Below are positions 7,823 through 29,231 of a stretch of DNA of 64,000 bases, in pieces; the first letter of the stretch is position 1, and each line of letters starts with the position of its first letter. A program made the translations under genes and the position numbers. Under the pieces are notes generated by a model that was given only the letters and a program-made list of their open reading frames with translations, was not told the origin of the DNA and did not search any database. This DNA is from Hyphobacterium sp. CCMP332. GTDB taxonomy: Bacteria; Bacteroidota; Bacteroidia; Cytophagales; CCMP332. The DNA is taken from positions 2,768,001 through 2,832,000 of the forward strand of contig CP058647.1 of assembly GCA_014323545.1 (NCBI GenBank), in the 5' to 3' direction.

Positions 7823-8787
7823 AAATAGCTGTTTAAATTAAGAATGGCTCTTTTTCGATACCTCCAGAGATAAATAAAGGGAATAGGAATGGTAAAAGGA
7901 ATCAAAAGAAAGGCCAGCATAATGGTCTGCAGACTTTGCATATCCGAATTGTCTTTGCCGGGTTCGTAAAAGCTAAATTTCAAATAAATACTCAGACATT
8001 GATGCACTGTCAACAATATGAAAATCCCAAATAGAATTGGAAATATTTCGATGCTGAGTACGACTGTTAAAATTAAAAGGGGCGTGCCGGAAATAAGATA
8101 ATAGTACAAATGTTTTTTCAGATAATAATTCAGAAAAGCTCTTGCATTTTTTCCATAGGCCTGTATAAGTATCTGACTTTCATTGTATTGCAGCAGACTT
8201 AGAATTCTCAAATGCAATATAAATATGGCGAAAAAGACAAATGAGATGTGAATCACCTGGCATGCAGCAAGTAGTAGTAGTATTAGGTAAACAATAAACC
8301 CTTTTCTCAGTGCAATGGTCCAGGGCAGCAGGGCCAAATGAGCGATGGGAAATTTAATAAGCTTTCCAGTCTGAACACCTGATTTTAAGTCCAGGGAAAG
8401 AAAAAACAAAAAGGGAATAGAAAGGGCTGTGGCCTTTAAATTTCCAATTAATGCCAATATCAAAAGCAGAGGCAATGCGAACAGGCTATTTTGCAAGAAT
8501 CGGATCCAAAAAGGAGAGGCCCCTAAGCTGATCAGAAAATCTTTTTCGTTTGGAGCATTGCTTTTGCCTGAAGAAAAAACGGTGGCAAAAAACAGGGCCG
8601 GAATTAGCGGGATTAAAAAGACCCAGATGGAAGAAAATGGGATGAACGGCAATATTTGAAAGAGGAAAATCAATCCTATGATGCTTAGAATTATTATCCT
8701 TGCAATACCAATTTCTGCAAGCAATCTGAAAAACTGATTGAAATGTACTCTGCAGAGATGGATCAATAAATTCAGATGGAATTGCAT
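7819..8787 (-). CDS. ABC transporter membrane subunit (unassigned)
   Basis: 322 residues, very hydrophobic, with roughly eight to ten membrane segments, among them IIILSIIGLIFLFQILPFI and LILTVVLSIEIFPILFGIF. No signature of a named permease family is visible, but the 4-nt overlap with an ABC ATPase gene makes it the membrane partner. It lies divergent to a second ABC system, separated by 63 bp. The substrate is unknown. Confidence 0.75.
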   Translation of the reverse strand: MQFHLNLLIHLCRVHFNQFFRLLAEIGIARIIILSIIGLIFLFQILPFIPFSSIWVFLIPLIPALFFATVFSSGKSNAPNEKDFLISLGASPFWIRFLQNSLFALPLLLILALIGNLKATALSIPFLFFLSLDLKSGVQTGKLIKFPIAHLALLPWTIALRKGFIVYLILLLLAACQVIHISFVFFAIFILHLRILSLLQYNESQILIQAYGKNARAFLNYYLKKHLYYYLISGTPLLILTVVLSIEIFPILFGIFILLTVHQCLSIYLKFSFYEPGKDNSDMQSLQTIMLAFLLIPFTIPIPFIYLWRYRKRAILNLNSYL

Positions 8788-8850
8788 TCCTAATTTTAGT
8801 TTTTTTATTTTTTTGATAAAAATTTCAACACAGACAAAACGAAGATTGCA

Positions 8851-9765
8851 TTGAATATTTTAGACGTACAGGATGTTTCTAAATCTTTTGGAGAAAATAC
8901 CGCCCTGCAAAACGTTAGCCTGAGTATCTCAAAAGGAGAAATATTTGGTCTTCTGGGCCCAAACGGAGCGGGAAAATCTACCATGATCCGGATAATCACT
9001 CAGATCATCAAAGCAGATAGCGGTGAAATCTTAATAAAAGGCGAAAAGCTAAAACCCGAGCACATCGAGGTAATCGGTTATTTGCCCGAAGAGCGCGGTC
9101 TTTATAAGAAAATGAAAGTTGGCGATCAGCTGATGTATCTGGCGCGCCTGAAAGGACTTGAAAAAAGCGAGGCTTTTGAAAAGATAAAATACTGGATTAA
9201 AAAATTTGAAATTGAGGAATGGTGGAATAAAAAGATTGAAGACCTTTCAAAGGGCATGCAACAAAAGGTCCAGTTCATTTCTACGGTAGTGCACGATCCG
9301 GATATTTTAATTCTCGATGAACCGTTTTCCGGTTTTGACCCAATTAATGCCAATTTGATCCGCGATGAAATACTCCAGCTTCGCGATCAGGGCTGTTCGA
9401 TCATTTTTTCTACCCACAGAATGGAATCCGTAGAGGAGTTATGTGATCATATTGCCCTGATCAATAATGCCAAAAAAATCCTGGATGGGCCTAAATTCGA
9501 AATTAAAGAAGCGCATAAAAAGCATTCTTACCGTGTGGAATACAAAGGGGATGATTTAGCACTGGCAGCCCCCTATGCCATCAGCTCTAATGCCACACTT
9601 CAGAATACAAACAAGGAGACAGTGATTATTGATCAATCAAAAGGAGATCCCAATGAGCTCATCAAATTATTGGCGCAGAAAGTAGAGATTCATTCCTTTT
9701 CCGAAATTATACCCAGCATGAATGATATTTTCATTTCAAAAGTACAGGAGGTCAATCATGGATAA
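8851..9765 (+). CDS. ABC transporter ATP-binding protein, NatA-like
   Basis: 304 residues. ABC domain (1-230) with Walker A GPNGAGKST, signature DLSKGMQQKVQF, Walker B ILILDEPFSGFDP and H-loop STHRM, plus a C-terminal extension (about 230-304) like the DUF4162 domain of NatA/DrrA-type exporters. No in-frame ATG exists before the conserved start; the TTG at 8851 gives NILDVQDVSKSFGENTAL, the usual start of this family. Its last codons overlap the permease gene that follows, whose ATG lies at 9758. It probably drives sodium or drug export together with that permease. Confidence 0.93.
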   Translation: MNILDVQDVSKSFGENTALQNVSLSISKGEIFGLLGPNGAGKSTMIRIITQIIKADSGEILIKGEKLKPEHIEVIGYLPEERGLYKKMKVGDQLMYLARLKGLEKSEAFEKIKYWIKKFEIEEWWNKKIEDLSKGMQQKVQFISTVVHDPDILILDEPFSGFDPINANLIRDEILQLRDQGCSIIFSTHRMESVEELCDHIALINNAKKILDGPKFEIKEAHKKHSYRVEYKGDDLALAAPYAISSNATLQNTNKETVIIDQSKGDPNELIKLLAQKVEIHSFSEIIPSMNDIFISKVQEVNHG

Positions 9766-27548: not shown

Positions 27549-27623
27549 GGAGTGTTAGCTCAGTTGGTTTAGAGCACTACCTTGACAGGGTAGGGGTCAC
27601 TGGTTCGAATCCAGTACACTTCA
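27549..27623 (+). tRNA. tRNA-Val (anticodon GAC)
   Basis: The 75-nt cloverleaf folds fully: acceptor ggagtgt / acacttc (one G-U pair), D arm with gctcagttggtttagagc, anticodon stem ctacc / ggtag around the loop ttgacag (anticodon GAC, reads GUC and GUU valine codons), and T arm actgg-ttcgaat-ccagt. The discriminator base is A and no CCA is encoded, usual for Bacteroidota. It is divergent from dnaE and is followed at once by palindromic repeat DNA. Confidence 0.95.
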
Positions 27624-27624
27624 C

Positions 27625-27780
27625 AAAACCCGAAACAAAGAAGAGCAATCAAATTTTAATTCAAAGCAAATGTATTTGACTTTGAATTAAAATTTGATTG
27701 TTAATCGCTTTGCGATTTTTTATTTCGGGTTTTTACCTCCCCAAACCAGGATCGCCGAAAGAAACGTAGTGAATTGAGGC
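27625..27780. repeat. Palindromic repeat unit A
   Basis: Nested inverted repeats: an outer 11-bp pair aaaacccgaaa (27625-27635) / tttcgggtttt (27723-27733); an inner perfect 21-bp pair (27646-27666 with 27680-27700, 13-nt centre); and a small hairpin aatcgctttgcgatt. The tail continues as tttttacctccccaaaccaggat and a gaggca / tgcctc hairpin around 27774. Unit B at 27815-27970 shares the core ttgttaatcg, ttttacctc, cccaaac, ggat and gcaatcc in the same order, so these are two copies of one element. The start of the unit follows the tRNA by 1 nt, so it may also end the tRNA transcript. Confidence 0.7.
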
Positions 27781-27814
27781 AATCCCGTATGCCTCACTAG
27801 ATCCAAAAGAATTT

Positions 27815-27970
27815 TTTTAAACAATCAAAGTGAAATTCATTACCAATTTTATTTGTAAATGAATTTTGCTGTTTGTTAATCGTGAAACGATTTATTCTTT
27901 TTGATTTTTACCTCTCCCAAACTGGATACCTTGAACAAATTTGGAAGCAATCCAGAATGCATCGCATTTC
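27815..27970. repeat. Palindromic repeat unit B
   Basis: Diverged copy of unit A. An inverted repeat aaattcatt / aatgaattt around 27833-27865 replaces the long palindrome, followed by ttgttaatcg-tgaaa-cgattt, tttttacctctcccaaactggat and gcaatccagaatgc. The same order of blocks and spacing as unit A, with many substitutions, points to an old duplication or to two insertions of the same mobile repeat. Confidence 0.6.
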
Positions 27971-27983
27971 CCCCCAACCTCGT

Positions 27984-28003
27984 CCGCGTTTGTAACGCGG
28001 ATG
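27984..28003. repeat. REP-like hairpin, left of the RAYT gene
   Basis: Stem ccgcgtt / aacgcgg with loop tgt. The core gcgtttgtaacgc (27986-27998) recurs as its exact reverse complement at 28685-28697 on the other side of the transposase gene, and tttgtaacgcggatg recurs with one change at 29217-29231. Confidence 0.75.
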
Positions 28004-28071
28004 CCATAAGAACACATAATCAAATTCCATGTATGTTGATTAAAAAGCAATTTCATTCAATTTTTTCAATT

Positions 28072-28602
28072 TCAACTAATCCTTTTTTTGCTGCAATAAT
28101 CTCTTGCACTACTATAAATATATTCGCCCGGTGAATCAACAATCTCATCGACTACAGGATTATTGTGAATATAATCGATCTTATTCCAGATATCTATATC
28201 ATGCATCCCAATTGCGTGATTATCGTCTTTCCAGATTTTGTAGTTTTTGGCTCGCCCGACCCGTTTTGCTTCAAAGGCAAAAATTCGCTTTATCCATTCT
28301 CTTCTGCTTTCATAGATCTCATCCATTTCTTTCATAATTGCTTTGGAAGTAAATTTTTTAAAATCTCTTAAAAAATCTGAAATTCTATTTGGCGCTTCAA
28401 CTTTGCAAACCAGGTGTAAATGATTAGTCATTATAACCCAGGCATAGACTTTTAGACCTTTATTAATGACGCAGTAATTCAATGAATCAACAATTATTTG
28501 CCGATAATTCTTTCTTGAAAACAAATCCACCCAATGAACAACAGTGAAGGTTAGGAAATAAATATCATTTTGTCCTTGAATAAAATACCGATCTCCTGCC
28601 AT
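28072..28602 (-). CDS. REP-associated tyrosine transposase (RAYT, Y1_Tnp family)
   Basis: 176 residues, full length for the family. The HUH motif is NHLHLV (His61, His63), and the conserved helix YIHNNPV (Tyr144) holds the family's tyrosine. YFLTFTVVHW at the start is typical of the Y1_Tnp fold. Such single-domain HUH nucleases cut and rejoin short palindromic (REP) DNA and are thought to spread or maintain REP elements, usually as single domesticated copies per genome. Here REP-like hairpins flank the gene in opposite orientations (27984-28003 and 28683-28699), which supports the assignment. The reading frame is intact with an ATG start. Confidence 0.88.
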   Translation of the reverse strand: MAGDRYFIQGQNDIYFLTFTVVHWVDLFSRKNYRQIIVDSLNYCVINKGLKVYAWVIMTNHLHLVCKVEAPNRISDFLRDFKKFTSKAIMKEMDEIYESRREWIKRIFAFEAKRVGRAKNYKIWKDDNHAIGMHDIDIWNKIDYIHNNPVVDEIVDSPGEYIYSSARDYCSKKRIS

Positions 28603-28682
28603 TAGATGAATATCGGAAAAGAATTCAAATGCAGTTTAAATCAATGATTGGAACTACATTTTTTCTTTGTAAAGCAATAGTT

Positions 28683-28699
28683 ATGCGTTACAAACGCAT
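28683..28699. repeat. REP-like hairpin, right of the RAYT gene
   Basis: Stem atgcgtt / aacgcat around an ac loop. Its core gcgttacaaacgc (28685-28697) is the exact reverse complement of the core at 27986-27998. Just downstream (28709-28725) tcctcgttgcgttacgc contains a further degenerate part of the same motif. Confidence 0.75.
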
Positions 28700-28841
28700 G
28701 ATCATAGTATCCTCGTTGCGTTACGCTAAATTTATCGGCCAATAGGCGGACGAGGACGAGTGCGGGGGCTTTTCTAAGGCCGCAGACGCTAACAATACTG
28801 AAAAACTTGATAAAGTTCTGCATCCAGATTACCGGATTATT

Positions 28842-29090
28842 ATGAACCGATTATTTGGATCTAAGGAAGTTTCAGTTATGAACAAACCTCAATACTTAGA
28901 AAAAATAGTAAGCAAAGAGTGGGGTGGTGTTAAGCGAGTAGTCAATGTTGAAACGATAATCTTTAACGAAAACTCTGCTTCTGCAATTGTTGCTTATAAA
29001 GGAGAAAAGATGTCATGGAAAAGCATAATACATCTTGTTAATTCTGAAAACAACGAATGGCTAATTATTAGCGAAACACCCAAAATGTAA
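28842..29090 (+). CDS. Small hypothetical protein in the repeat island
   Basis: 82 codons, ATG at 28842, alternative ATG at 28878. The part VETIIFNENSASAIVAYKGE then WLIISETPK resembles the last strands of SnoaL/NTF2-like proteins, where an 'NN-W-I-S' block is common, so it may be a truncated member. It ends at a strong terminator 8 nt after the stop and has its own reading direction between the RAYT gene and the amidohydrolase, which argues that it is or was a real gene. No function is assigned. Confidence 0.45.
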   Translation: MNRLFGSKEVSVMNKPQYLEKIVSKEWGGVKRVVNVETIIFNENSASAIVAYKGEKMSWKSIIHLVNSENNEWLIISETPKM

Positions 29091-29097
29091 TAGTCTT

Positions 29098-29121
29098 GGC
29101 CCGTTTATCGGGCCCTTTTTT
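29098..29121 (+). terminator. Intrinsic terminator after the 82-codon ORF
   Basis: Six-bp GC-rich stem ggcccg / cgggcc with a 5-nt loop followed by a run of T on plus, 8 nt after the stop at 29090. Confidence 0.85.
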
Positions 29122-29156
29122 AAATCTTTTCACTCATTTACTTTCACTCGTCTTCG

Positions 29157-29231
29157 CCTGCCTGCCATGCCTATGGTTATTTGCTTAACCTTCGGCAGGT
29201 AAACCGGTCAGGCAGGTTTGTAACGAGGATG
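29157..29231. repeat. Composite inverted repeat with a third REP-like core
   Basis: cctgcctgcc (29157-29166) faces two copies of ggcagg (29194-29199, 29211-29216), and tttgtaacgaggatg (29217-29231) matches the core left of the RAYT gene (27989-28003) in 14 of 15 bases, in the same orientation. Confidence 0.6.

Follow-up and report, generated by a model that had tools for sequence, protein, structure and literature searches.

The RAYT gene and its flanks

The locus described here lies within a window of 64,000 nucleotides (the whole stretch of DNA analysed) from the genome of Hyphobacterium sp. CCMP332, and consists of a short transposase gene, two paired-hairpin units inverted on either side of it, a truncated neighbouring gene and a hairpin remnant. 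The transposase gene (28072..28602, minus strand) encodes a protein of 176 aa, which scores 33.3 bits against the Pfam family PF01797 (Y1_Tnp, cut-off 23) and 87.2 bits against the NCBIfam model NF047646 (REP_Tyr_transpos, cut-off 80), and which passes this RAYT model and fails the IS200 model (transpos_IS200), with 24.6 bits for a cut-off of 55. Its AlphaFold model has a pLDDT of 91, and its top match among solved structures is E. coli TnpA-REP in complex with a REP hairpin (4er8, Foldseek E 2.5e-7), which is also the best solved relative by profile search (E 8.9e-8). The HUH pair (H61 and H63), W124 and Y144 do not vary across 34 of 34 aligned rows; Y144, which lies in the motif YIHNNP, is the presumed catalytic tyrosine. 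The second motif is NHLH, the distance from HUH to Y is 81, and the W motif reads WK in the window protein and WK, WQ, WR or WT in the other aligned rows. Judged by these scores and motifs, the original prediction of a RAYT is right, and the type is the one found in Bacteroidota.

This prediction also placed a 13-base core on the two sides of the transposase, and GCGTTTGTAACGC is indeed found exactly at 27986-27998 on the plus strand and at 28685-28697 on the minus strand. Within the window there are no further matches to it at up to two mismatches, and shuffled sequences give a mean of 0.60 such matches, with 12 of 100 shuffles reaching two. The two 13-mers are not equivalent: the copy at 27986 lies within H1, the outer of the two hairpins in the downstream unit, and the copy at 28685 belongs to H2, the inner hairpin of the upstream unit. 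The repeat unit is the hairpin pair, inside which the 13-mers lie, and not the core itself; the proposed REP-like character of the flanks stands in so far as inverted hairpins are common to the relatives of this gene.

The upstream paired-hairpin unit (28679..28762, minus strand) has H1 on the outside and H2 toward the gene, and is recovered with 39.2 bits (E 6.6e-10 in a search of 84.5 kb) by R1, a covariance model without any training row from the window genome; with filters off and over 9 kb, R1 gives a shorter alignment with 20.0 bits (E 4.9e-5). Its H1 (28710..28756, minus strand) is formed by TCCTCGT (28710-28716) and ACGAGGA (28750-28756) and encloses a loop of 33 nt instead of 3 nt. 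Its H2 (28683..28699, minus strand), which reads ATGCGTT-TGT-AACGCAT in minus-strand sense, contains the 13-mer at 28685-28697, and its loop begins 17 nt past the AACGAGGA arm, the same distance as in relatives. The downstream unit (27977..28038, plus strand; R1 38.1 bits, E 1.4e-9) is inverted with respect to the upstream one and has a degenerate H2; its H1 (27983..28001, plus strand), TCCGCGTT-TGT-AACGCGGA, contains the 13-mer at 27986-27998. Folding as single-stranded DNA gives both stems of the upstream unit (z -3.0) as well as the downstream H1, and for each window unit only 1 of 200 shuffles equals or beats the stability of the strand with the TGY loop. A run of cytosines, CCCCCCA (27970..27976, plus strand), adjoins the downstream H1 and is mirrored by GGGGG at 28764-28768, which makes these runs candidates for the outer edge of the window unit. 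CCC(C)AA is found just outside H1 in some related units, not all; the idea of an outer CCCC(A) tag as a universal end was dropped, the tag being missing from Pedobacter-like rows.

A third near-copy of the core had been proposed at 29217-29231, and TTTGTAACGAGGATG at this position does match the first copy in 14 of 15 bases (one mismatch). It forms part of a half H1 relic (29216..29231, plus strand; GTTTGTAACGAGGATG) which lacks the 5' arm, and a full unit was ruled out here: R1 gives the core at 29217 only 6.7 bits, E 0.59 over 9 kb, and what is present is the 3' half of H1 alone. Between the upstream unit and this relic lies a Lumazine_bd_2-like gene (28770..29090, plus strand), truncated at its 5' end, which has a reading frame starting right at the upstream unit's outer edge and covers positions 20-112 of the 116 in profile PF12893 (23.1 bits, cut-off 22.1). 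On the other side, a tRNA-Val(gac) gene at 27549-27624 is found about 350 bp from the RAYT unit, and in the stretch 27549-27925 two degenerate copies of an 'acctcyccaaactgg'-like segment can be seen by eye past it, at about 27733 and about 27910.

Anatomy of the paired hairpins in related loci

For comparison, we used the best 80 of 559 confirmed RAYT loci with flanks; the relatives with names are Bacteroidota by record title, and L073 is titled merely 'bacterium'. The typical flank in these relatives is composed of H1 (about TCCTCGTT-TGY-AACGAGGA), a linker and H2. In the 400 bp either side of the RAYT in these best 80 of 559 loci, hairpins of the type GTT-NNN-AAC with a stem of at least 7 occur 117 times (63 kb of flank), compared with 14 for distal sequence (282 kb) and 0.12 for shuffles. 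Read along the gene, upstream loops are TGT or TGC in 35 of 57 cases and ACA or GCA in 8, whereas downstream loops are ACA or GCA in 34 of 60 and TGT or TGC in 15, and the hairpins are thus polar and mostly inverted.

The two hairpins mostly stand in a fixed phase. Of 86 H1 with a stem of at least 8, 65 have an H2 (any hairpin with a 3-nt loop and a stem of at least 4; background 0.5% per position) with its loop start at a distance of exactly 28 nt, in 40 cases toward the gene (next-best offset 5) and in 25 away from it (next-best 3); the remaining 21 have no H2 at 28 nt. At least four of the 65, those with ACA or GCA loops, are probably H2s viewed from the other side. Counting only the H1 nearest to the gene, H2 points toward the gene in 29 of 56 flanks and away from it in 13, and is missing at 28 nt in 14; in Pedobacter-like flanks this comes from whole inverted pairs that adjoin the gene. 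The four bases 5' of the 8-bp core stem of H1 are mostly A or C, then T, any base and mostly G, with the T, three bases 5' of the stem, present in 64 of 64 distinct units.

To judge the pairing itself we used alignment A1, whose 59 rows are the 64 distinct phased stretches minus four with ACA or GCA loops and one with a repeated core. In A1, 97.0% of cells are paired and the aligned units have a 3-nt loop. Since selection had used the 8 inner pairs of H1 and the 4 inner pairs of H2, the five pairs outside this rule provide a fair test of covariation: they are paired in 89.8% of cases (56.9% when shuffled) and have a covariation score of 0.877, compared with 0.229 for shuffled and at most 0.152 for slid versions, figures that are not probabilities because the rows are related and kinship inflates the statistics. 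One of the five pairs, a G-T wobble conserved in 44 of 59, can be formed by one strand alone. The first tag base at the foot of H1 (C, G, A or T) is paired in 56 of 59 units and covaries with its partner. In some rows, such as L020_d62 and L022_d62, H2 is followed by a run of T.

The design extends beyond one stem sequence. Hairpins of any sequence with a 3-nt loop and a stem of at least 8 number 160 in the 400-bp flanks of the 80 loci, compared with 2 in one shuffle of each, and 141 of the 160 have TT/AA closing pairs; in 74 the arm has an ending other than GTT, and 16 of these 74 are accompanied by an H2 28 nt toward the gene. An H1 of the GTT-NNN-AAC type (stem of at least 8) is found on at least one side in 33 of the 36 closest loci and in 4 of the 44 others, and loci beyond the closest clade often retain the design with different stems.

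Copies in the window genome and in other genomes

Counted across the window genome, the bare core GTTTGTAACG occurs 6 times, compared with 8 for the reversed control, which contradicts the expectation that it would be commoner than chance, and the bare core was dropped as a repeat for want of enrichment here. The longer CNCGTTNNNAACGNG is found in 3 places (control 2) and the 19-base palindrome TCCKCGTTNNNAACGMGGA in 3 places (control 0); the excess over chance thus concerns the palindrome and where it is placed, and the bare core shows none. The other two perfect palindromes (141171-141189 and 141215-141233) are H1 copies in direct orientation, 44 bp apart from start to start and 56 bp past the 3' end of an 891-codon frame, both preceded by CCCTATCTAG (L009 2172-2234), and R1 finds no H2 at 141171-141233. 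A second RAYT-like gene (3248356-3248862) is 60% identical to the window RAYT and scores 70.2 bits against NF047646, under the cut-off of 80; by eye, it has H1-like stems with loops of 26-27 nt and is without H2, and R1 recognizes one of its ends only (15.2 bits). In the order-level survey described below, the window genome has only four R1 matches at E <=0.01, and no REPIN-like pairs were seen in it. With so few palindromes, no H2 at the solo copies and none at the second RAYT, the system is low-copy in this genome, and no REP population has grown in it.

The situation is different in the genomes of relatives. In all 16 relatives' genomes searched, which were picked since the hairpin flanks their RAYT, the polar 19-mer is present in 2-31 exact copies per genome and its reversed control in none (0 in 16 of 16), so that the predicted enrichment of the repeat is borne out there for the palindrome. 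From among the matches listed, 16 inverted H1 pairs 83-128 bp apart were picked by H1 alone, with H2 being no criterion; 30 of their 32 halves have an H2 at exactly 28 nt, and both halves do so in 14 of 16 pairs. The relatives' repeats hence include two inverted units with no gene between them, the arrangement by which REPINs are recognized.

In a survey of 148 order-level genomes, in which at most 38 candidates were scored per genome, so that counts are minima, and which may include genomes of training rows, R1 matches were found in 24 of 80 genomes with a RAYT (E 1e-10) and in 6 of 68 without (Fisher p 0.0018). All 8 genomes with the closest RAYTs had such matches, compared with 22 of the 140 others (the cut for this, E 1e-58 or better, was chosen after the list was seen; Fisher p 1.2e-6). 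The exact 19-base palindrome occurs in 8 of the 148, all 8 with a RAYT. Repeats in genomes lacking the RAYT gene were to count against the original prediction, and the survey contains such cases: among the six genomes with R1 matches but no RAYT, G044, G103 and G147 carry another Y1 transposase, and in 3 of the 148, G118 (99% complete), G011 (88%) and G144 (68%), no Y1 transposase match was found. G118 (10 contigs) has nine R1 matches, the best at 5.2e-11, and its congener G131 has both repeats and transposase, which suggests orphaned repeats in the former.

Across 395 phylum-level genomes the polar 19-mer is found in only one, the window's own, and with 1 carrier in 395 this phylum-wide test of the exact sequence has little power. 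RAYT genes at E 1e-30 are present in 54 of the 395, and closer than E 4e-51 there is again only the window's own. This pattern fits a hairpin sequence that would be confined to the nearest clade.

Possible movement of RAYT units, and the genes beside them

Evidence that gene and ends can move together comes from genome G020, in which 5 of 11 RAYT matches were compared. Four RAYT-plus-hairpin units of about 715 bp (one of 681) are 90-97% identical from outer hairpin to outer hairpin, share no common flank beyond the hairpin cassettes and, by eye, have no target duplication, which supports the movement of the gene with its ends as one unit in this genome. Two-copy RAYT sets are found in G105 (87%) and G102 (85%), and G037 has five RAYT genes at 89-94%, for which the extent of the matched stretches differs. 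Furthermore, a REPIN in the L030 genome joins 102 bp of the start end of the RAYT (98.0%) to 54 bp of the other end (98.1%), retaining the start codon and missing the middle, and resembles a RAYT unit copied with an internal deletion. Among the pairs listed, the position of the RAYT is equal in different species of the Pedobacter-like group (L013, L018, L021, L029) and likewise constant in L063/L064/L069 and L071/L074, which fits vertical inheritance.

In the window genome, both RAYTs adjoin a truncated gene on one side. For the window copy this is the lumazine-like gene; matches to it in 3 of 13 genomes have open frames of 126-149 codons that reach further upstream, and reading three frames beyond the far side of the RAYT unit revealed no N-terminus. 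The second RAYT adjoins a gene truncated relative to its 424-aa paralogue. An attempt to find its empty site via this paralogous gene failed, the two flanks not being of one gene, and no second copy of its right-hand fragment was found in the window genome; it sits between remnants of different genes (L091 3682-5229, or 3247.7-3249.2 kb of the window genome). A 250-aa transposase frame, which we take to be IS3-like, occurs twice near the second RAYT (L091:791-1543 and 8763-9515). As no empty site was found for either window-genome RAYT, insertion of the window copy rests on one-sided gene truncation, from which insertion at both sites appears likely. A candidate in-frame insertion at L148 was dropped on reading its flanks, where the gene is more likely to be a frame of the opposite strand.

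Comparison with known systems

The original prediction described RAYT/REP pairs as little known in Bacteroidota, which is fair, although the class itself is in print; among the papers listed for RAYTs or REPs with Bacteroidetes, PMC6006769 and PMC3733652 are the ones of relevance here, and a full-text literature search gave no published match to six forms of the hairpin sequence. In the accessible part of Quentin et al. 2018 (PMC6006769), TnpAREP subclass 2.6, which the authors equate with RAYT group 5 of Bertels et al. 2017, is mostly from Bacteroidetes and has the motifs NH[LIV]H and YIH[QN]NP, a WQ motif, a median HUH-Y distance of 82 and the value 179 in what is presumably the length column. 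The window protein resembles it in length (176 aa), HUH-Y distance (81) and the motifs NHLH and YIHNNP and differs in its W motif (WK); by two of the three motifs tabulated in that part of the paper, we assign it to subclass 2.6. According to the same source, the secondary structures beside subclass 2.6 genes are atypical and lack GT[AG]G, and further copies of them occur elsewhere in the genome. In this material the paired hairpins, the 28-nt phase, the polar TGY loop and the movement of the gene with its ends are not described, and its Table S1 lists subclass 2.6 structures, which may include some of the paired-hairpin kind. Relative to this part of the literature, the subclass with 'atypical' flanking structures is already published, and the phased anatomy and the mobility of the unit are what is added here.

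The family shares features with several better known systems. As in the REPtrons and REPINs of E. coli and Pseudomonas, a RAYT is accompanied by inverted cognate palindromes, and gene-less inverted pairs are dispersed in the genomes of relatives; unlike these, it has two hairpins per unit and no GT[AG]G foot, which in canonical REPs lies 5' of the hairpin. The window genome also lacks the high-copy dispersal of canonical REPs (3 palindromes and 4 R1 matches, compared with the 2-31 exact copies of relatives). Elements of the IS200/IS605 type typically have one subterminal hairpin per end. The likeness to these (IS608, ISDra2) lies in the HUH-Y1 fold, the hairpins at the ends and the apparent lack of target duplication in G020, whereas the ends of the window family are inverted paired-hairpin units and its protein passes the RAYT model and not the IS200 cut-off.

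Double palindromic terminal inverted repeats (TIRs) have been described for TIRYTs and TIRtrons (Di Nocera et al. 2013, PMC3733652), in which a RAYT-like gene lies between long inverted repeats, some doubly palindromic; in contrast to the units described here, these TIRs share GGGGWSAS or are mutually unrelated, and the accessible part of the paper describes no fixed phase between hairpins. Many H1 units have CGTC at the stem foot, as do the CGTC-tagged REPs covered in the same text, for which it reports no dedicated transposase and no RAYT flanked by CGTC units. Those REPs have loops of 4-5 nt and an unpaired tag, whereas H1 has a 3-nt loop and a paired first tag base, and because this base varies together with its partner we ruled out membership of the CGTC superfamily.

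Proposed model and alternative explanations

In our preferred reading, with a probability of about 0.72, the window holds a HUH element with a single gene, IS200/IS605-like and belonging to the Bacteroidota RAYT subclass, about 800 bp long (about 27970-28768), whose inverted paired-hairpin ends would be the recognition sites of the transposase. The sequences themselves show the RAYT assignment, the inverted polar units, the 28-nt phase, the stem covariation, the dispersed copies in relatives, the near-identical RAYT units in one genome and the single deletion-like REPIN. Several of the results given above weigh against this reading: the unenriched core and the few R1 matches of the window genome, the 20.0 bits of the upstream unit with filters off, a second RAYT under the RAYT cut-off and without H2, the H1 that have no H2 at 28 nt or have it pointing away from the gene, the RAYTs at constant positions in different species, and the three genomes with R1 matches and no Y1 transposase match. 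In the proposed model, the ends would become single-stranded, for example on the lagging-strand template, and the strand with the TGY loop would fold into H1 and H2. Recognition by the enzyme would involve the polar TGY triloop of H1, the H1 stem with its G-T wobble and an H2 kept at the 28-nt phase, and the cut by Y144 would fall close to the invariant T, three bases 5' of the 8-bp core stem. Once excised, a unit could re-insert without target duplication, and the same ends would let gene-less derivatives (REPINs) move, some of them arising by internal deletion of the RAYT unit. Choice of strand, cleavage site, role of H2 and past movement of the window copy are all parts that we infer, and the element may now be inactive in the window genome.

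The most serious competitor, which we consider possible and clearly less probable than a mobile element, is a domesticated REPtron, that is, a stable and vertically inherited host gene which mobilizes only REPs and REPINs, is itself immobile and is flanked by hairpins that are its REP copies. The conserved RAYT position in Pedobacter-like loci and two other groups (among the pairs listed) speaks for it, together with the 2-31 exact H1 copies in 16 of 16 genomes chosen for a flanking hairpin, many in inverted pairs, and the view, as far as PMC8049555 is accessible, of RAYTs as single-copy, vertically inherited genes. An immobile gene is difficult to reconcile, however, with the four near-identical units of G020, the pairs in G105 and G102 and the five genes at 89-94% in G037, or with a window genome that has two RAYTs, each beside a truncated gene, and almost no dispersed copies.

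A role of the hairpins in RNA, as transcription terminators or mRNA structures of the RAYT or its neighbours and not as DNA substrates, seems very unlikely to us: they do adjoin a short gene, and some rows have the T-runs noted above, but a polar loop mirrored on both sides, fixed 28-nt pairs, inverted pairs with the same phase elsewhere and hairpins at the ends of duplicated units speak against it. Chance recurrence of a short palindromic word near one gene is the least probable of all and hardly credible; it would agree with the bare core count in the window genome, which is not above control, but not with window units found at E of about 1e-9 by a model from other genomes, with enrichment and covariation across the family or with the phase test on inverted pairs.

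Returning to the mobile element, its wider interest concerns the question of how REPINs and domesticated transposases originated from ordinary insertion sequences. A single family with gene unit, solo unit, REPIN and deletion intermediate side by side would make this question directly testable, and for a Y1 HUH enzyme a fixed spacing between two hairpins is uncommon as a rule of recognition. The family is a possible bridge between ordinary mobile DNA and a tamed REP system, and one could go further and regard Bacteroidota RAYTs as living intermediates on the way from IS200/IS605 to domesticated RAYTs, with a 28-nt two-hairpin reading, a gene that jumps in G020 and is fixed in Pedobacter-like genomes, and REPINs that can arise by internal deletion. 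As the polar TGY triloop persists through wholesale changes of the stems from lineage to lineage, the stem sequence would in this view be the specificity code, and loop and phase together the common grip; for this broader proposal we see the odds as even.

Several further arrangements of the repeats were observed. Genome G081, from a different family, has at least 32 R1 matches, several with identical scores, possibly from a recent burst of the repeat. Tandem arrays of hairpin cassettes with a period of 182 bp are found in Mangrovivirga, at L019 3529-3900 and in its genome, G151 (contig 9, 230985-233361), with 11 further exact copies at one other site of G151, among the matches listed. Finally, 81-bp tandem repeats containing CTGCGTTTGTAACGCAG lie upstream of the RAYT in L035 (2600-2900).
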